Assembly (NCBI RefSeq): GCF_002127655.1
Contig: NZ_NEHB01000003.1
Coordinates: forward strand, 145,047-209,046
Direction of reading: 5' to 3'
Source: Janthinobacterium sp. GW456P
GTDB lineage: Bacteria > Pseudomonadota > Gammaproteobacteria > Burkholderiales > Burkholderiaceae_D
Length of the DNA stretch: 64,000 nucleotides
In this document: piece by piece, positions 5,591 to 59,168 of the stretch
Layout: the number at the start of each line of letters is the position of its first letter
Position numbering within the stretch: the stretch's first letter is position 1
Translations under genes and position numbers: made by a program
Notes under the pieces: model-generated
Database searches by the model: none
The model's input: the letters and a program-made list of their open reading frames with translations, nothing else
Told to the model about the DNA's origin: nothing

Positions 5591-6733
5591 ATGCATATCG
5601 CCATCATCGGCGCGGGCCTGGGCGGGCTGATGCTCGCCCGCGTGCTGCACGTCCACGGCATCGCCGCCACCGTGTATGAAGCGGAGGCATCGCCGCAGGC
5701 GCGCCGCCAGGGCGGCATGCTCGACATCCACGAAGAAACTGGCCAGCAAGCGCTGCGGGCGGCCGGCCTGCACGATGCCTTCCGTGCCCTCATCCACGCG
5801 GGCGGCGAAGCGAGCCGCGTGCTCGACCAGCATGGCACCGTCCTGCTCGACGAGGACGACGACGGCACGGGCGGCCGTCCCGAAGTGCCGCGCGGCGAGT
5901 TGCGCCGCATCCTGCACGCAGCCTTGCCTGAAGGCTGCGTGCGCTGGGGCCACAAGCTGACAAACGTCGCCACGCTGGGCGGCGGCCAGCACCTTTTACA
6001 TTTTGCGCATGGCGCCACGGCAAGCAGCGATCTGCTGGTGGGCGCGGACGGTGCCTGGTCCCGGGTGCGGCCGCTGCTCTCCAGCGCGCAGCCGGCCTAC
6101 AGCGGCATTGCCTTCATTGAAACGTATCTGTTCGACAGCGACCGCCGCCACGGGGCCACTGCGCAAGCCGTGGGCACCGGCGCCCTGTTCGCGCTGGCGC
6201 CGGGCAAGGGCATCCAGGTCCACCGCGAAGCCGATGGCGTGCTGCATGCGTATGTGGCCCTGAGTAAACCGGAAGAATGGCTGGCGAGCATCGATTTTGC
6301 CGACCCGGCCGCCGCCCGGGCCGCCATCGCCGCCCAGTTTGCCGGCTGGGCGCCGGCGCTCACGGCCCTGATCACGGACGCGGACACGCCGCCCGTGCCC
6401 CGTCCCGTGCATCTGCTGCCCGTCCGCCACCGCTGGCAGCGCGTGGCGGGCGTGACCTTGCTGGGCGACGCGGCCCACCTGATGGCGCCAGCCGGCGAAG
6501 GCGCCAACCTGGCCATGCTGGACGGCGCCGAGCTGGCGCAAGCGCTTGCCGCGCCCCCCAGCGACGTGGAAGCGGCCCTGCTGGCATATGAAACGGCGCT
6601 GTTTGCGCGCAGCAGCGTGGCCGCGGCGGAGTCGGAGCGCATCCTGCGCCTGTGCTTCGGCGACGATGCGCCGCACGGCCTGGTGCGGTTCTTTACGGGC
6701 ATGCGGGACGCCGGCCCGGCACCCGAAGTGTAA
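5591..6733 (+). CDS. TetX-like FAD-dependent monooxygenase
   Basis: The 380-residue flavoprotein begins with the dinucleotide-binding motif GAGLGGL (residues 7-13) and has the second FAD motif GDAAHLMAP (about residues 295-303). The N-terminal half follows the TetX pattern closely from memory: GGMLDIHEETGQQALRAAGL, then EVPRGELRRIL. TetX-type enzymes hydroxylate and inactivate tetracyclines, but many relatives act on other aromatic compounds. The divergent TetR-type regulator strengthens a xenobiotic role. Length matches TetX (about 380 residues). Tetracycline as substrate is only a possibility. Confidence 0.8.
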   Translation: MHIAIIGAGLGGLMLARVLHVHGIAATVYEAEASPQARRQGGMLDIHEETGQQALRAAGLHDAFRALIHAGGEASRVLDQHGTVLLDEDDDGTGGRPEVPRGELRRILHAALPEGCVRWGHKLTNVATLGGGQHLLHFAHGATASSDLLVGADGAWSRVRPLLSSAQPAYSGIAFIETYLFDSDRRHGATAQAVGTGALFALAPGKGIQVHREADGVLHAYVALSKPEEWLASIDFADPAAARAAIAAQFAGWAPALTALITDADTPPVPRPVHLLPVRHRWQRVAGVTLLGDAAHLMAPAGEGANLAMLDGAELAQALAAPPSDVEAALLAYETALFARSSVAAAESERILRLCFGDDAPHGLVRFFTGMRDAGPAPEV

Positions 6734-6812
6734 ATGGCGGCGCCAAAGCCCCACGCCAGCGGCCTTTATCGGGGATAATACGTCTTCCCCCATTCCCAGC
6801 AGCCGCGCCACG

Positions 6813-7904
6813 ATGAAATACCCTGCAGTCCAGCCCTTCAGCGACATCCTGCCACGCCTGCATGAGTTCGACGCCATCATCGACGTGCGCAGCCCGTCCG
6901 AGTTCGCGGAAGACCATTTGCCGGGCGCCATCAACTTGCCCGTGCTCGACGACGAGCAGCGCGTGCGCGTCGGCACCCTGTACAAGCAGACGAGCGCCTT
7001 CGAGGCGAAGAAGCTGGGCGCGGCGCTGGTGGCGCAGAATATCGCGCGGCATATCGAAGACGGCTTCCTCGGCCACCCGCAGTCTTGGTCGCCGCTGGTG
7101 TATTGCTGGCGCGGCGGCAACCGCAGCGGCGCCATGGCGCACATCCTGGCGCGCATCGGCTGGCCCGTGACGCAGCTCGAGGGCGGCTACAAGGATTACC
7201 GGCGCCACGTGAACGCCGAGCTGGCCATCCTGCCCGAACGCTTCGACTTCATCAACGTGCTGTGCGGCCCCACCGGCAGCGGCAAGAGCCGCCTGCTGCA
7301 GGTGCTGGACAAGCAAGGCGCGCAGGTGATCGACCTGGAGCAACTGGCAGCGCACCGCGGCTCCGTGCTGGGCGGCTTGCCAGAGGAAGTGCAGCCGTCG
7401 CAAAAGGCGTTCGAAAGCGCGCTGTGGCAGCAATTGCGCACTTTCAACCCGCATCTTCCCGTGTTCATCGAATCGGAAAGCAAGAAAGTGGGCCGCTTGC
7501 GCGTGCCCGACGCGCTGATGGAAAAGATGCGCGCGGCCGCCTGCACGGACGTGCGGCTGGCCACGGAGCAGCGCGTGCAATTGCTGATGCAGGATTATGC
7601 GCATTTCGTCGGCGATGCACAGCGCCTGAACGTGCAGCTGGCCCTGTTGACGCAACTGCATGGCAAGGAGAAAATCGCCCACTGGCAGCAACTGGCCACG
7701 GCGGGCCGCATGGCCGAGCTGGTGGAAGAACTGCTGGTCCAGCATTACGACCCCGTCTACCGGCAATCGATCGCCCGCAACTTCAGCCGCTACGCCCAGG
7801 CGACACCGCTGGTCTTGCCCGATATTTCAGAACATGCCTTTGAGCAAGCCGCGCGCGCATTATGTGCTATCGTCGGCGAACCCCGTACCGCCAGCGCCGC
7901 CTGA
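6813..7904 (+). CDS. mnmH: tRNA 2-selenouridine synthase
   Basis: The 363-residue enzyme replaces sulfur by selenium (from selenophosphate) in 2-thiouridine at the wobble position of tRNAs for Lys, Glu and Gln, probably through geranylation. An N-terminal rhodanese domain has its catalytic cysteine at residue 98 in CWRGGNRSG; the second part is a P-loop domain with GPTGSGKS at 152-159. The start at 6813 gives the family's usual length; readings further upstream overlap the monooxygenase gene in another frame. The selD gene follows after 43 bases and supplies its selenium donor. Also called selU or ybbB. Confidence 0.95.
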   Translation: MKYPAVQPFSDILPRLHEFDAIIDVRSPSEFAEDHLPGAINLPVLDDEQRVRVGTLYKQTSAFEAKKLGAALVAQNIARHIEDGFLGHPQSWSPLVYCWRGGNRSGAMAHILARIGWPVTQLEGGYKDYRRHVNAELAILPERFDFINVLCGPTGSGKSRLLQVLDKQGAQVIDLEQLAAHRGSVLGGLPEEVQPSQKAFESALWQQLRTFNPHLPVFIESESKKVGRLRVPDALMEKMRAAACTDVRLATEQRVQLLMQDYAHFVGDAQRLNVQLALLTQLHGKEKIAHWQQLATAGRMAELVEELLVQHYDPVYRQSIARNFSRYAQATPLVLPDISEHAFEQAARALCAIVGEPRTASAA

Positions 7905-7947
7905 GCCTGAGCGCGCTTTTTTACCTTTTTTAAGCAGGATGACGACC

Positions 7948-9012
7948 ATGTCCGATAGCGCACTACCATCCAATACACCCATCCGATTGACCGAATTTGC
8001 CCATGGCGGCGGCTGCGGCTGCAAAATTGCGCCGGGCGTGCTGGCCGACATTTTAAAGGGCAGCGGCGGCTTTCCCCTGCCGAAGGAATTACTGGTCGGC
8101 ATAGAAACCTCCGATGACGCGGCCGTCTACCAGCTCAACGACGAGCAGGCGCTGATCGCCACGACAGATTTCTTCATGCCCATCGTCGACGATCCGTTCG
8201 ACTTCGGCCGCATCGCCGCCACCAACGCCATTTCCGACGTGTACGCCATGGGCGGCACGCCCATCATGGCGCTGGCCCTGGTGGGCATGCCGATCAACAA
8301 GCTGCCGGTAGAAACCATCGGCCTCATATTAAAGGGCGGCGAAACCGTCTGCGCCCAGGCTGGCATCCCCATCGCGGGCGGCCACACCATCGATTCCGTC
8401 GAGCCGATCTACGGCCTGGTCGTGCTGGGCCTGGTCCACCCCTCGCAAGTGAAACGCAACGCGGGCGCGCGCGCCGGCGATAAACTGGTATTGGGCAAGC
8501 CGATCGGCGTGGGCATCTTGTCGGCCGCGCTGAAGAAAAACGCGCTGGACGCGGACGGCTACGCTTCCTTAATCGACAACACCACCAAATTGAATACCCC
8601 GGGCAAGAAGCTGGCCCTGCTCGATGGCGTGCATGCGCTGACGGACGTGACGGGTTTCGGCTTGCTGGGCCACACCCTGGAACTGGCGCGCGGCGCCAAG
8701 TTGCAGGCGCGCATCGCCATGGATGCCGTGCCGCTGCTGCCGCAGGTGCAGCAACTGGCGCAAAATGGCAACATTACTGGCGCATCAAACCGCAACTGGC
8801 AAGGCTACGGCGCGCAAGTGGCGCTGGCAGACAATTTAAGCGCCATCGACAGGGCGATCCTGACGGACCCGCAGACGGCCGGCCCCCTGCTGGTGGCCTG
8901 CGCGCCGGAAGCCGTCGAGCAAGTGCTGGCGATTTTCCGCGCCGAAGGCTTTGGCGACGCCGTCGTCGTCGGCGAGATGCAGGAAGGCACGACCGGGGTT
9001 TCCGTATCTTAA
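7948..9012 (+). CDS. selD: Selenide, water dikinase (selenophosphate synthetase)
   Basis: The 354-residue enzyme makes selenophosphate from selenide and ATP. The active site reads GGGCGCK with Cys23 and Lys26, equivalent to Cys17/Lys20 of the E. coli enzyme, so this is the cysteine rather than selenocysteine form. ATP-binding blocks TSDDAAVY, DFFMPIVDDP and GGHTID are intact, as is DVTGFGLLGH. The ATG at 7948 was preferred to that at 7939 because an AGCAGG ribosome binding site ends at 7938, too close to the earlier ATG. With mnmH before it and a transporter after it, this is the core of a selenium operon. No selA or selB is in the window. Confidence 0.97.
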   Translation: MSDSALPSNTPIRLTEFAHGGGCGCKIAPGVLADILKGSGGFPLPKELLVGIETSDDAAVYQLNDEQALIATTDFFMPIVDDPFDFGRIAATNAISDVYAMGGTPIMALALVGMPINKLPVETIGLILKGGETVCAQAGIPIAGGHTIDSVEPIYGLVVLGLVHPSQVKRNAGARAGDKLVLGKPIGVGILSAALKKNALDADGYASLIDNTTKLNTPGKKLALLDGVHALTDVTGFGLLGHTLELARGAKLQARIAMDAVPLLPQVQQLAQNGNITGASNRNWQGYGAQVALADNLSAIDRAILTDPQTAGPLLVACAPEAVEQVLAIFRAEGFGDAVVVGEMQEGTTGVSVS

Positions 9013-9040
9013 TGAACAATATTTTTACAAAGGCACTCCC

Positions 9041-9907
9041 ATGACCACTTTTTCCAAATTCCCCGCCATCCTGGCCACCGTCGCCGCTACCCTGGCCATC
9101 CACAGCGGTCTGGCGCAGGCGCAACAAGTGCTGCGCGTCTCCGCCATCCCCGATGAAGCGCCGACGGAATTGCAGCGCAAGTTCAAGCCGCTGGGCAGCT
9201 ATCTGGAGAAAAAGCTGGGCATGAAGGTGGAATTTACGCCCGTCACCGATTACGCGGCGTCCGTGGAAGGCTTGATCAATCACAAACTCGACATGGTCTG
9301 GTTCGGCGGTTTTACTTTCGTGCAAGCGAACGTGCGCAGCGGCGGCAAGATTGTGCCGCTGGTGCAGCGCGAGGAAGACACGAAGTTCCGCTCCGTGTTT
9401 GTGACCACCAGCAAGGACATCAATCAATTGTCCGACCTGAAGGGCAAGAACTTCACCTTCGGTTCGGAATCGTCGACCTCGGGCCACTTGATGCCCCGTT
9501 ACTACTTGCTGGCTGCCAAGATCAATCCGGACACGGACATGAAGCGCATCGCGTTCTCGGGCGCGCATGACGCCACCGTGGCGGCCGTAGCCGGCGGCAA
9601 GGTCGATGCGGGTACCTTGAACATTTCCGTGTGGGAAAAGCTGGTCGAAGCGAAAAAGGTCGACCCGAGCAAGGTGCGTGTGTTCTACACGACACCAGGC
9701 TACTACGACTACAACTGGAGCGTGCGCGCCGACATGAACCCGGCCGTGCGCCAGAAACTGACGGACGCCTTCCTGGCGCTGGATCCCTCCACTGCCGAAG
9801 GCAAGGAAATCCTGGAATTGCAGCGCGCCACGAAGTTCATCCCCACCAAGGCCGAGAACTACAAGGATATCGAAGCGGCCGCGCGCGATGCGAAGCTGTT
9901 GAAGTAA
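9041..9907 (+). CDS. Putative selenate ABC transporter, periplasmic binding protein
   Basis: The 288-residue exported protein has a signal peptide ending near AQAQ (about residues 26-29) and a PhnD-like fold pattern: RVSAIPDEAPTEL at the mature N terminus, DMVWFGGFTFVQA, then SESSTSGHLMPRYYL. It starts 28 bases after selD. PhnD-like proteins encoded next to selD are, as I recall, a named family of putative selenate-binding proteins, and the context supports that over phosphonate. The ligand has not been shown by sequence alone. A REPIN element separates it from the ATPase gene. Confidence 0.85.
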   Translation: MTTFSKFPAILATVAATLAIHSGLAQAQQVLRVSAIPDEAPTELQRKFKPLGSYLEKKLGMKVEFTPVTDYAASVEGLINHKLDMVWFGGFTFVQANVRSGGKIVPLVQREEDTKFRSVFVTTSKDINQLSDLKGKNFTFGSESSTSGHLMPRYYLLAAKINPDTDMKRIAFSGAHDATVAAVAGGKVDAGTLNISVWEKLVEAKKVDPSKVRVFYTTPGYYDYNWSVRADMNPAVRQKLTDAFLALDPSTAEGKEILELQRATKFIPTKAENYKDIEAAARDAKLLK

Positions 9908-9931
9908 TATAGGTCGACGCGTTTTATCGTT

Positions 9932-10023
9932 GGTCGGATTAGCGGCAAAGCCGCATAATCCGACACAAGCAATAATGGCGACAATGTTGTCGGATTACGG
10001 CCTCCGGCCTAATCCGACCTACG
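9932..10023. repeat. REPIN-like element, copy 1
   Basis: Two inverted hairpins: the first at 9933-9964 (GTCGGATTA paired with TAATCCGAC), the second at 9989-10018 with the same stem in opposite orientation, ending CCGACCTAC. The outer sequence matches the copies at 45761 and 59057. It lies between the binding-protein and ATPase genes of the selenate transporter, where it could stabilise the upstream mRNA. Confidence 0.8.
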
Positions 10024-10076
10024 CTGCCGTCGCATGGCGTCATCCGACACACCACCGCCCCCACACCGAACATCGC

Positions 10077-10889
10077 ATGACATTCCAACTTCACAAGGTC
10101 AGCGTCCACCACGCGGGCGCCGCGGGCCATGCGCTGGCCCTGCGCGACGTGGACCTGGACGTGGCCCAGGGCGAGCAGATCGCCCTGATCGGCCCGTCAG
10201 GCGCCGGCAAGACCAGCCTGCTGCACACCCTGGCCTGCGCGCTGCGCCCGGCATCGGGCACATTGAACATCCTGGGCACGTCTCCCTGGCAAGCCGGCAG
10301 CGCCGAACGCCACGCCTTGCGCTCGCGCCTGTTCCTGGCGCCGCAAACGCCGCCGCTGCCGCCGCGCCAGCGCGTCGTCAACGCCGTGCTGGCGGGACGT
10401 CTGCCGCAATGGAGCTTGTGGACGGCCATCCGTTCGCTGCTGGCGCCCGCCGATCCGCGCGCCGCGTGGGAAGCGCTGGGCAAATTCAATCTGCAGGACA
10501 AACTGTATGCCAGGGTCGACCGGCTGTCCGGCGGCGAACGCCAGCGCTGCGGCATGGCGCGCGCACTCGTGTCGAATGCGCAAGTGTTCCTTGTCGACGA
10601 ACCGCTGTCCGCGCTCGACCCGACACTCGCCTTGCAGACGATCCATGTGCTGCAGGCCGAAGCGCAGGCGCGCAACGCCACCCTGATCTGCAGCTTGCAC
10701 CAGGTGGACATCGCCCGCGCCTGCTTTACGCGCATCGTCGCCCTGCGTGACGGCCAGATCGTCTTCGACTTGCAGGGCAGCGAGGTCAGCGACGCGATGA
10801 TCGCCGAGCTGTACCGCAACAAGGCCGAGCCGGCACCGCAGTTTGAATCGGTGGCAGCAAACCTGGACGCCGCGAGGCCCCTTTGCTGA
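10077..10889 (+). CDS. Putative selenate ABC transporter, ATP-binding protein
   Basis: The 270-residue ATPase has Walker A GPSGAGKT at residues 39-46, the signature LSGGERQR at 150-157 and Walker B VFLVDEP followed by LSALDP. It resembles PhnC-type ATPases. The ATG at 10077 is the start giving a normal N-terminal beta strand; the longer reading from 9930 runs through the REPIN and is rejected. The last seven bases overlap the first permease gene. It energises import with the two permeases that follow. Confidence 0.88.
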   Translation: MTFQLHKVSVHHAGAAGHALALRDVDLDVAQGEQIALIGPSGAGKTSLLHTLACALRPASGTLNILGTSPWQAGSAERHALRSRLFLAPQTPPLPPRQRVVNAVLAGRLPQWSLWTAIRSLLAPADPRAAWEALGKFNLQDKLYARVDRLSGGERQRCGMARALVSNAQVFLVDEPLSALDPTLALQTIHVLQAEAQARNATLICSLHQVDIARACFTRIVALRDGQIVFDLQGSEVSDAMIAELYRNKAEPAPQFESVAANLDAARPLC

Positions 10890-11716
10890 AAAGCGCCGAC
10901 GCCGCCATACCGCGCGATCCCGCCTGGCGCGGCCGCCTGACCGGGGCCGCCATCGTGCTGTTCGTACTGTGGCCGATGCTGGTACAGGCCGAGTTCAAGC
11001 CGTGGATACTCTGGGATGCGCAAAGCCTGGCGGCCACCTGGCAATTCGTCGCCAGCTTCGTGCCGCCCGCCCATACGCCGGAATTTTTGCAGCTGGTGGC
11101 CATTTCCAGCTGGGAAACCATCGCCATGGCCACGGCCGGCATGGCGCTGGCCATGCTGGGCGCCATTCCATTGACCCTGCTTGTGACGGAGCGCTTGTCG
11201 ATCTCGCGCATCGGTTCCGGCCAGGTGTCGCCGCTGGCCGCCAGCGTGCGCCATGGCGTGCGCGCGCTGCTGGTGCTGCTGCGCAGCGTACCGGAACTGG
11301 TCTGGGCATTATTGCTGGTACGCATCGTCGGCCTGGGGCCGACGGCCGGCGTGATCGCCATCGCCCTCACGTATTGCGGCATGCTGGGCAAGGTCTACGC
11401 GGAAATCCTCGAGTCGTCGGACGCCGCCTGCAACGCCTTGTTGCACAACGGCAGCGGCAGACTGCAAGCCTTGCTGTACGGCGCCCTGCCCGAATCGGCC
11501 GCCGAACTCGTGTCGTACACGATTTACCGCTGGGAATGCGCGATCCGCGGTTCCGTCGTCATGGGTTTTGTCGGCGCGGGCGGCCTGGGCCAGCGCATGG
11601 ATGAATCGATGAAGATGATGGCAGGCAGCGAGCTGGCCACCATGCTGATGGTGTTCGTGCTGCTGGTGGCGGGCGCCGACGCCGTGTCCGCCATGCTGCG
11701 CCGGAGGCTGGCATGA
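10883..11716 (+). CDS. Putative selenate ABC transporter, permease 1 (PhnE-like)
   Basis: The 277-residue membrane protein has about six hydrophobic segments and the permease signature ending VVMGFVGAGGLGQ (about residues 229-241), preceded by LRSVPELVWALLL. The proposed start is TTG at 10883, overlapping the ATPase stop; the first internal ATG (10976) would remove the N-terminal membrane segment. Its stop overlaps the next permease gene by four bases. It pairs with that permease as a heterodimeric channel, unlike many PhnE systems with a single permease. Confidence 0.85.
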   Translation: MLKSADAAIPRDPAWRGRLTGAAIVLFVLWPMLVQAEFKPWILWDAQSLAATWQFVASFVPPAHTPEFLQLVAISSWETIAMATAGMALAMLGAIPLTLLVTERLSISRIGSGQVSPLAASVRHGVRALLVLLRSVPELVWALLLVRIVGLGPTAGVIAIALTYCGMLGKVYAEILESSDAACNALLHNGSGRLQALLYGALPESAAELVSYTIYRWECAIRGSVVMGFVGAGGLGQRMDESMKMMAGSELATMLMVFVLLVAGADAVSAMLRRRLA

Positions 11717-12510
11717 AGACTGAACCGATGTTGCCCATCCCTGCTCCCGTGCGCTGGTCGACCTGGGCCTTGCTGGCCGGTTTAGTGCTGCTGGTCATCG
11801 CCAGCTTCGCCACCCTGCCCCTGAAATGGGGCGAGTTCTTCAGCGCCGACGCCGTGCGCACGAGCGCCGATTTCCTGCACGGCTTCGCCCCGCCCGAGCT
11901 GGCCGGCCCCTTCCTGATGAAAGTCGGCGTGGCCACGTTCGAGACCCTGGCCATGTCGGCCATCGGCACGCTGATCGCGGCCGTATTCGGCGCGCTGCTG
12001 GCCCTGCCCGCCAGCGGCCGTTTCGGTCACTTGGCGCGCAACGCGACGCGTGGCGTATTGAATGTGCTGCGCTCGATCCCGGAACTGGTGTGGGCCTCGA
12101 TTCTGCTGATCGCCGCCGGCTTGGGCCCGTTCGCGGGCACCCTGGCCCTGGCCTTGCACACGGTGGGCGTGCTGGGGCGCTTGTTTGCCGATGCGTTTGA
12201 AAACTGTCCGCCCTTGCCGGCCGCCACCCTGCGCATCAACGGCGCGCGCCCGGCCGTGGCCTTTTTATACGCGACCTTGCCGCAGTGCAGCCCGCAGATG
12301 ATGTCCTACACCCTGTACCGCTGGGAAAACAATATCCGCGCCGCCGCCATTCTCGGCGTCGTCGGTGCGGGCGGCCTGGGACAGATGCTGAAATACCATC
12401 TTTCGCTGTTCCAGATGCAGAGCGCCGCCACCGTCATCGTCGCCATGTTGCTGATGGTGGCCGCCGTCGATGGCCTCAGCTATGTGCTGCGCCGCGCCAT
12501 GACCCGTTAA
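11713..12510 (+). CDS. Putative selenate ABC transporter, permease 2 (PhnE-like)
   Basis: The 265-residue polytopic protein is a paralogue of permease 1: both share the RSIPELVWAS/RSVPELVWAL block, the MSYTLYRWENNIRAA/VSYTIYRWECAIRGS block and GVVGAGGLGQ, the loop that contacts the ATPase. The start overlaps the preceding stop (ATGA). Together they suggest duplication of one permease gene within the operon. A strong ribosome binding site for the next small gene follows its stop. Confidence 0.87.
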   Translation: MKTEPMLPIPAPVRWSTWALLAGLVLLVIASFATLPLKWGEFFSADAVRTSADFLHGFAPPELAGPFLMKVGVATFETLAMSAIGTLIAAVFGALLALPASGRFGHLARNATRGVLNVLRSIPELVWASILLIAAGLGPFAGTLALALHTVGVLGRLFADAFENCPPLPAATLRINGARPAVAFLYATLPQCSPQMMSYTLYRWENNIRAAAILGVVGAGGLGQMLKYHLSLFQMQSAATVIVAMLLMVAAVDGLSYVLRRAMTR

Positions 12511-12528
12511 TTTTTTAAAGGAGTGCCC

Positions 12529-12894
12529 ATGTCAGGCTGGTGGACGATTATCTCGACGCAAACGCCGGAACAACTGGCCGATATGACGAAAGTCAACAAG
12601 GAAACGTTTCTCGCCACCTGGGAAGCGGGCCTGTTCGGCGCGGACTGGATCGCGCAACTGTGTACACAAGGCAAGGCGACCCAGCTGGCGTTCAACGGTT
12701 TCCCCAACCGCTACACGGCCTCGGCGGACGTCATCGCACCGCTGTTGCTGGCGGGCATCGCCGAAGCACGGGACGGCGAATTTCCGCAGGACCAGCTCAC
12801 GGGCTGGCCTGGCAGTATCACCGTGCACGGGGAGCGCATCGCCGCCTGCGCGCCCGGGCAGCTGCTCACGATTGAAGTGTGGGACCAATCCTAG
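12529..12894 (+). CDS. Small protein of unknown function in the selenium operon
   Basis: The 121-residue cytoplasmic protein starts MSGWWTIIS and has no signal peptide, membrane segment or domain that I recognise. It contains two cysteines, at LCTQG and at AACAPG. An excellent ribosome binding site (AAAGGAG at 12517-12523) lies five bases before the ATG, 18 bases after the second permease, so it is almost surely expressed with the transporter. A role in handling the imported selenium compound is a guess from position only. Confidence 0.7.
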   Translation: MSGWWTIISTQTPEQLADMTKVNKETFLATWEAGLFGADWIAQLCTQGKATQLAFNGFPNRYTASADVIAPLLLAGIAEARDGEFPQDQLTGWPGSITVHGERIAACAPGQLLTIEVWDQS

Positions 12895-12999
12895 GTCAAG
12901 CGCAACAAATACGGCTGAGCAAGCCTGCACTCCTGTTAATATTGTCAAATACTTCAATGGATAGCGCCATCCCAAGGACAGGCGCCATGCCATTCAAGC

Positions 13000-13410
13000 A
13001 TGATGGACGTATTTTCCTGCACCGCAGGCCACTCTTGCATAGGCTGTCACCACCATGAAAAACTGCTCCTGGGCGCTCTCGCCGCCGGCTGCGCAATCTT
13101 CGCCAACGCCAGCGCCGCCCCTGTCGAGGATTTTATCGGCACGTGGAAACTGGAACGCACCACCGTCCCGAACTATGTCGTCATCAGGCAGGAAGGCGGC
13201 CAGCTTGTGGCGCTGCGCTACACGCGCAATGTTGCCAGCAACAAGATCACCGAACGGCGCTATCCGGCAAGCTATGCGAACGGCGATGTCGCCATCGATG
13301 CGGGCGAGACGATCATCGAAGCGCGCAGCGTGAACGATGTCGCGACCGTCACGATGCTGGCGCAAGCGTACAAGAAGATATCCTCGTCCACGGCCGCACC
13401 GACCAGTTAA
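13000..13410 (+). CDS. Small exported hypothetical protein, start region possibly frameshifted
   Basis: As read, the 136-residue product begins MMDVFSCTAGHSCIGC and only then runs into a signal-peptide-like stretch KLLLGALAAGCAIFANASAA. An ATG at 13055 followed by five adenines lies in the wrong frame by one base; with a sixth A it would read MKKLLLGALAAG, a textbook signal peptide joined to the same mature protein (APVEDFIGTWKLERT). So either the gene carries a one-base deletion in the A tract 13058-13062, or a sequencing error, or an unusual long leader. The mature part (about 95 residues) looks lipocalin-like, a weak impression. Function unknown. Confidence 0.5.
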   Translation: MMDVFSCTAGHSCIGCHHHEKLLLGALAAGCAIFANASAAPVEDFIGTWKLERTTVPNYVVIRQEGGQLVALRYTRNVASNKITERRYPASYANGDVAIDAGETIIEARSVNDVATVTMLAQAYKKISSSTAAPTS

Positions 13411-45760: not shown

Positions 45761-45862
45761 GTAGGTCGGCTTAGCGCAACGCGCGTAAGCCGACACCACC
45801 GGCGATCCAGGCCAACAATGTTGTCGGATTACGCAGGGCTTTGCCCTGCTAATCCGACCTAC
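45761..45862. repeat. REPIN-like element, copy 2
   Basis: GTAGGTCGGCTTAG opens a hairpin ending TAAGCCGAC at about 45795; a second, inverted hairpin runs from GTCGGATTA (45823) to TAATCCGACCTAC at 45862. The last bases on the minus strand, GTAG, include the TAG stop of the EF-G gene. It separates two operons that converge. Confidence 0.85.
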
Positions 45863-59060: not shown

Positions 59061-59168
59061 GTCGGGTTAGCGCGCAGCGCGTAAGCCGACACCACCCAAG
59101 CATCCAACCGGCATCTCCGCCGTCCTTGTGTCGGATTACGCGCGCCACCGGCGCGCTAATCCGACCTG
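59057..59168. repeat. REPIN-like element, copy 3
   Basis: GTAGGTCGGGTTAG opens a hairpin ending GTAAGCCGAC at 59090; an inverted hairpin from GTCGGATTA (59130) to TAATCCGACC follows near 59165. The first TAG is the stop codon of the NRDE gene. Same family as copies at 9932 and 45761. Confidence 0.85.

Follow-up and report, generated by a model that had tools for sequence, protein, structure and literature searches.

The window analyzed here is a stretch of 64,000 nucleotides from Janthinobacterium sp. GW456P. Positions 6813-12894 of the window contain seven genes, all on the + strand, for a tRNA 2-selenouridine synthase (MnmH), a selenophosphate synthetase (SelD), a periplasmic substrate-binding protein (SBP), an ABC transporter ATPase, two permeases, and a small protein. 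Judging from the sequences and their relatives, we propose, with a probability of about 60%, that the locus is a selenium supply-and-use operon in which the SBP, the permeases and the ATPase would import a selenium oxyanion, most likely hydrogen selenite.

Gene content of the locus and selenium use in the genome

A previous sequence-only reading had described a compact selenium locus with a dedicated importer. The family scans agreed with this description, the importer being a candidate one: MnmH and SelD scored over equivalog cut-offs and the SBP scored over the cut-off of the TIGR04553 family. The features of the locus are as follows (aa, amino acids).

6813-7904, + strand: mnmH (selU, ybbB), tRNA 2-selenouridine synthase, 363 aa; NF008752 508.6 bits (cut-off 266), TIGR03167 372 bits (cut-off 219.75)
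7948-9012, + strand: selD, selenophosphate synthetase, 354 aa; NF002098 539.3 bits (cut-off 299), TIGR00476 424.7 bits (cut-off 125)
9041-9907, + strand: periplasmic binding protein (SBP), 288 aa, predicted hydrogen selenite binder; TIGR04553 402.4 bits (cut-off 250)
9908-10076, no strand: intergenic gap with inverted repeats like repetitive extragenic palindromic (REP) elements (GTCGGATTA...), 5 pattern matches at 9933-10048; likely RNA hairpins 3' of the SBP gene
10077-10889, + strand: ABC transporter ATPase, PhnC-like, 270 aa; PF00005; TIGR02315 189.6 bits, under the cut-off of 266.1
10883-11716, + strand: permease 1, PhnE-like; PF00528; TIGR01097 179.4 bits, under the cut-off of 216.7; 7-bp overlap with the ATPase gene
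11713-12510, + strand: permease 2, PhnE-like; PF00528; TIGR01097 235.1 bits, just over the cut-off of 216.7; 4-bp overlap with permease 1
12529-12894, + strand: small protein with no family match, 121 aa; beside the transporter in this genus only

The genes do run one way, as had been noted. The successive gaps from mnmH to the small gene are 43, 28, 169, -7, -4 and 18 bp; the short gaps or overlaps described earlier thus hold for five junctions and fail for the 169-bp gap between the SBP and ATPase genes. MnmH has a rhodanese domain (PF00581) with a Cys within YCWRGG, together with the P-loop GPTGSGKS. The motif HGGGCGCK of SelD carries Cys, not selenocysteine (Sec), and the start of selD is most likely at 7948, with an alternative ATG at 7939.

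We then considered what the selenium would be used for in the host genome, which is 6.27 Mb in size and carries the window on contig C23. Neither selA nor selB was found over cut-off in the window, as the sequence-only reading had stated; from this absence it had suggested that selenium might serve only tRNA modification, or else an enzyme elsewhere. A search of the genome for selA, selB and selC found all three on contig C77, where selA (589.7 bits) is the direct neighbour of selB (437 bits) and tRNA-Sec (selC; 69.9 bits, gathering score 47) follows about 50 bases past selB. Adjoining selA and selB are fdhE and the genes for the beta and alpha subunits of formate dehydrogenase-N, and the alpha subunit gene contains an in-frame TGA, around which the translation reads FDNQARVUHGPTVAG. 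The genome therefore has the genes for both selenium traits: mnmH and selD, scoring over their equivalog cut-offs, for selenouridine in tRNA, and selA, selB, selC and a selenoprotein gene with a UGA codon for selenocysteine decoding. Given selABC and a formate dehydrogenase gene of the Sec type, selenium use for tRNA alone is rejected, and the enzyme elsewhere has been found. Since the selD in the window is the sole selD over cut-off in the genome, it presumably feeds both uses.

Selenoneine was considered as a further use of selenium. A gene scoring as the selenoneine synthase SenA (460 bits, cut-off 420) was found in the same genome, on contig C78 beside phoU-phoB-phoR (L093:6151-7347). No SenB was found over the 300-bit cut-off, the best score being 44.9 bits.

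Co-occurrence and gene order across the family

To place the locus among its relatives, we used a sample of 195 genomes of the GTDB family, each of which was searched for TIGR04553, selD, mnmH and selB. An SBP over the TIGR04553 cut-off was present in 96 of the 195 genomes, representing 22 genera (genus labels counted by hand). In keeping with the description of this protein family as found in selenophosphate-making genomes, selD was present in 94 of the 96, while mnmH was present in 95 and selB in only 33. The two genomes in which selD was not found have a completeness of 80% and 68%, and the 68% complete genome is the one that also has no mnmH. In the 99 genomes without TIGR04553, selD was found in 73, mnmH in 73, and selB in 26. 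Fisher tests, in which shared ancestry is ignored, gave p-values of 6e-7 for selD, 8e-8 for mnmH and 0.28 for selB. With selD and mnmH in nearly all of the 96 genomes and selB in about a third, the importer follows selenophosphate synthesis and the selenouridine trait rather than selenocysteine decoding.

The arrangement of the genes was compared in 80 named loci. The order SBP-ATPase-permease-permease is kept in 76 of them; two of the others end at a contig edge and two show the SBP alone. Since the full order mnmH-selD-SBP-ATPase-permease-permease also recurs in 9 of the 80 loci, the gene order of the locus is not chance. In 21 further named loci selD lies upstream (3 of these are cut at the locus edge), and in 2 it lies on the other strand; one 31% match in locus L175 was not counted as selD. 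When distances were measured between the edges of the family matches, 20 of the 96 genomes had selD no more than 400 bp upstream of the SBP and in the same orientation, and a further 39 had it so placed at 2.8-20 kb. For 12 of the 96 the place of selD was not listed or selD was absent, and four of these (G005, G048, G109 and G168, same genus), when fetched, showed the full adjacent cassette.

Two more of these 12 genomes, G008 and G050 (loci L076 and L078), have the reversed order SBP-ATPase-permease-permease-selD. In a quick tree of the SBPs, from which identical sequences and matches shorter than 200 residues had first been removed, the pair branches off as a separate clade (99 SH-aLRT), which suggests that the linkage to selD formed or re-formed more than once.

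A selenium gene filling the 2.8-20 kb between selD and the importer was considered and rejected after four such loci were examined (L063, L064, L067 and L069), with their open reading frames (ORFs) identified in part. The gaps contain leuA and genes for a LysR regulator, an acyltransferase, a subtilisin-like protease, DUF1428 and DUF1801, and in one genome egtD and egtB (ergothioneine). In L064 (10930-14212), a selD-senB pair is divergent from senA about 5 kb from the importer, and senA is also near selD in G070, G106 and G133. Other departures from the common arrangement were seen in single cases: the SBP genes of two Roseateles loci (L170 and L174) have no adjoining ATPase or permease match at the score used, Duganella qianjiadongensis has an insertion of about 4.2 kb that parts the ATPase gene from that of the first permease (L142:9557-13806), and an in-frame TGA interrupts the SBP gene of G106 (L068:4732-5567).

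Binding-protein pocket and the nature of the cargo

The nearest named relatives of the SBP are from Janthinobacterium, at 97-99% identity. Its structure model (pLDDT 86.5) had the PhnD1 proteins of the picocyanobacteria Synechococcus and Prochlorococcus as best matches in the PDB, and in Foldseek these PhnD1 structures (7s6g, 5lq5 and 5lq8) were 37-40% identical to the SBP with E values of 1e-31 to 4e-31; PhnD1 is thus the closest solved relative in both fold and sequence. The Synechococcus structure was solved with phosphate, that of Prochlorococcus with phosphite or methylphosphonate. In PMC5700983, the phosphite and cap residues of Prochlorococcus PhnD1 are given as Y46, S126, T127, S128, H158 and D205, with a cap Y206 held by D13 and N176, and F90 and I11. 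The aligned residues of the window SBP, in the same order, are Y71, S145, T146, S147, H176, D223, Y224, D38, N194, F116 and I36, identical at all 11 positions. We also took a census of the pocket among relatives scoring >200 bits by tblastn (116 distinct rows after 28 duplicates of 144 were dropped). All eleven residues are kept in 115 of the 116, including one relative at 46% identity to the window SBP. The exception, L083 of genome G102, differs at two positions and falls under the TIGR04553 cut-off; this 1.7-Mb genome has no selD or mnmH match, and the other importer genes match in part only. This single case looks as if the importer were decaying in the way expected after a loss of selenium use.

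Selenite is a pyramidal three-oxygen anion that is mostly HSeO3- near neutral pH, while selenate has a fourth oxygen and carries no proton at neutral pH. PMC10284923 reports that PhnD1 needs three oxygens in a trigonal arrangement and binds phosphite about 10 times or more as tightly as phosphate (2.8 versus 26 μM in one pair), and that two strains tested cannot use phosphite. Methylphosphonate is bound less well than phosphite according to the same source and to PMC5700983. Because a pocket of this type favours pyramidal three-oxygen anions and D223 suits HSeO3-, the pocket of the window SBP would suit selenite better than selenate. The sequence-only reading had named selenate as the cargo, relying on the selD context and on a family name. 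That name is real, TIGR04553 being the 'putative selenate ABC transporter substrate-binding protein', and selenate itself has become doubtful, as the residues of the pocket are of the pyramidal-anion type and point to selenite.

In the mechanism that we propose, the SBP would catch HSeO3- in the periplasm and close on it as PhnD1 does on phosphite. The three oxygens would be held by Y71, S145-T146-S147, H176 and D223, and Y224, kept in place by D38 and N194, would cap the fourth position. The ATPase and the pair of permeases would then bring selenite into the cell, where cellular thiols may reduce it to selenide. SelD would convert selenide to selenophosphate, which MnmH would use to make 2-selenouridine in tRNA, and the same SelD would also supply SelA for the selenocysteine of formate dehydrogenase. 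We infer that the system transports selenite, that the direction is inward, and that import would limit selenation. A bolder version, to which we give slightly less than even odds, is that the operon may encode the first bacterial high-affinity importer specific for HSeO3-. In it a PhnD1 pocket of the phosphite type would be put to new use, Asp223 accepting the proton and Tyr224 covering the selenium lone pair, and the importer would mainly serve selenouridine.

Other cargoes were weighed against hydrogen selenite. Import of selenate (SeO4 2-), followed by reduction via the sulfate-assimilation enzymes, would fit the co-occurrence with selD and mnmH equally well and would agree with the NCBIfam name of TIGR04553. 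We consider it unlikely: D223 is expected to take a proton from its ligand, and at neutral pH selenate has none to give. Tetrahedral phosphate does fit such a pocket, as the crystal structure of Synechococcus PhnD1 shows (7s6g), yet PhnD1 is reported to favour pyramidal phosphite over it about tenfold (PMC10284923). Import of an organic selenium compound such as methylseleninate appears more improbable still. The tie to selenium is one of genome context alone, and SenA is commoner in the genomes with the SBP (62 of 96) than in those without it (29 of 99), both of which would allow such a cargo; the pocket, however, is of a small, tyrosine-capped type, and the weaker binding of methylphosphonate than of phosphite by PhnD1 argues against it.

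A further possibility is that the transporter imports phosphite, phosphonate or phosphate and stands beside selD by history. Its closest relatives of known structure take phosphite, methylphosphonate and phosphate as ligands, and the pocket is identical at 11 of 11 positions. We searched the 195 genomes for PtxD with the sequence from the Raoultella phosphite operon at E <= 1e-65 and found it in 11 genomes. At this threshold PtxD was not found in the genome of the window nor in 93 of the 96 TIGR04553 genomes; the two occur together in three genomes only (G085, G172 and G194), at separate places. In all 11 genomes the PtxD gene lies 0.9-1.0 kb from an SBP homologue that is under the TIGR04553 cut-off (hand comparison), and these PtxD-linked SBPs form a clade separate from the TIGR04553 SBPs in the quick tree. 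The PtxD genomes are not enriched in selD (8 of 11, versus 167 of 195 overall; hand count). PtxB of ptxABCD resembles the window SBP in its fold, its STS-H core and its capping aromatic residue, but its pocket signature is Y, S and Q at positions 116, 194 and 223, where the window SBP has F, N and D, and it is encoded beside ptxD in another gene order. Five of five PtxD-linked SBPs examined, of twelve known, have L, Y, S and Q at positions 36, 116, 194 and 223, and one also has F at 224. The PhnCDE equivalog cut-offs point the same way: the scores for PhnD (169 versus 261.1) and PhnC (189.6 versus 266.1) fall short, and only permease 2 reaches that for PhnE. A phosphorus cargo thus seems to us as unlikely as selenate. 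Given the co-occurrence with selD and mnmH and the presence of PtxD in only 3 of the 96 genomes, the TIGR04553 transporter is probably a selenium importer.

Several observations weigh against assigning selenite, or selenium at all, to the importer. PhnD1 with the same pocket binds phosphite and, more weakly, phosphate (PMC5700983 and PMC10284923), and the pocket residues alone do not tell selenium from phosphorus. The Fisher p-values take no account of shared ancestry, and the importer is dispensable, since selD is present in 73 of the 99 genomes without the SBP. Linkage to selD is also far from general: selD is 41-60 kb from the importer in 4 of the 96 genomes, far from it in 5 and on another contig in 16, and 48 of the 80 named loci have no selD in their flanks of up to 8 kb. 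Even within the genus of the window, genome G190 has the importer far from selD, and the small gene is not beside it. Finally, the SBP of G001 (L075; 46% identity, 294.9 bits) clears the TIGR04553 cut-off, but the genes around it are ordered differently and its branch is very long; its pocket is intact, and it may represent a different system.

Accessory features and relation to known systems

The gap between the SBP and ATPase genes contains REP-like inverted repeats with GTCGGATTA cores. The window has 10 matches to this pattern versus 0.56 expected, allowing at most one mismatch, at 9933-10048, 45782-45835 and 59078-59165, and 5 of them are in the 169-bp gap. The RNA fold z-score for 9905-10054 is -5.3. 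A hairpin in this gap was found in 7 of 7 loci folded (the window and L097-L102), with different sequences and z-scores of -2.3 to -5.9. The hairpin could perhaps stabilize the SBP mRNA. No Rfam match was found in the window at gathering scores, and in a promoter and terminator scan of 6600-13100 the matches were not above those in shuffled sequence.

The small gene most likely starts at the ATG at 12529, which is preceded by AAAGGAG, giving a protein of 121 aa. No match to this protein was found in Pfam, NCBIfam, PHROG or the PDB, and its structure model is poor (pLDDT 47). Homologues are 56-93% identical within the genus and 32-50% identical in 15 plasmid records, of which 14 are annotated as hypothetical. 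One plasmid region was examined, and it contains recombinase, toxin-antitoxin and uncharacterized genes and no selenium gene. The window and the loci L062 and L089-L092 (same genus) all have the small gene adjoining the importer, as do five Janthinobacterium isolate loci out of six (L097-L102, not L101). The importer has no such neighbour in G190 (same genus), in a metagenome-assembled genome locus labelled Janthinobacterium (L123), or in the other genera examined. A role as part of the importer was judged unlikely because the gene is missing at the importer in those other genera and in G190 and because of the setting of its plasmid homologue. It is probably a passenger.

Downstream of the transporter, a gene for a LolD/YbbA-like ATPase on the same strand lies 3' of permease 2 in 38 of the 80 loci L097-L176 and in 8 of the 28 loci L055-L082. 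It is followed by an FtsX-type permease gene in L063 and L108, and in L108 then by a CrtC-like lipocalin gene; no FtsX partner was seen among the few ORFs scanned in L139 and L115.

Among known proteins, AioX and ArrX, which bind arsenite and arsenate, belong to the same superfamily as the window SBP and likewise have non-phosphorus oxyanion ligands, but they share only 20-25% identity with it and are sensors, not importers. TIGR04553, an NCBIfam hypothetical equivalog, agrees with the window SBP in score and in its selD-bearing genomes and differs in that the pocket in the window points to selenite, not selenate. PhnD1 has been tested with phosphorus ligands, and 'selen-' is absent from the text of both PMC5700983 and PMC10284923. 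YedE, a selenium transporter predicted earlier, was likewise proposed from selenium gene context but is a single membrane protein, not an ABC importer; the 2015 genome-context study that proposed YedE and others does not contain 'phosphonate' or 'PhnD' in its text (PMC5322559). In a 2026 review, no specific high-affinity selenium transport system is said to have been identified in prokaryotes (PMC13188914). Among the literature matches listed, titles and abstract openings reported no measured function for the TIGR04553 family. The transporter described here is a further member of this predicted family; what is new is the selenite reading, the separation from SBPs linked to phosphite use, and the association with selenouridine instead of selenocysteine.

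With this operon and related ones from 22 genera of a single family, the question of prokaryotic selenium uptake becomes testable. The pocket predicts selenite before selenate and phosphate, and F116, N194 and D223 separate the selenium-linked from the phosphite-linked SBPs. As a predicted importer, the system may help to explain how some bacteria acquire an element as scarce as selenium.

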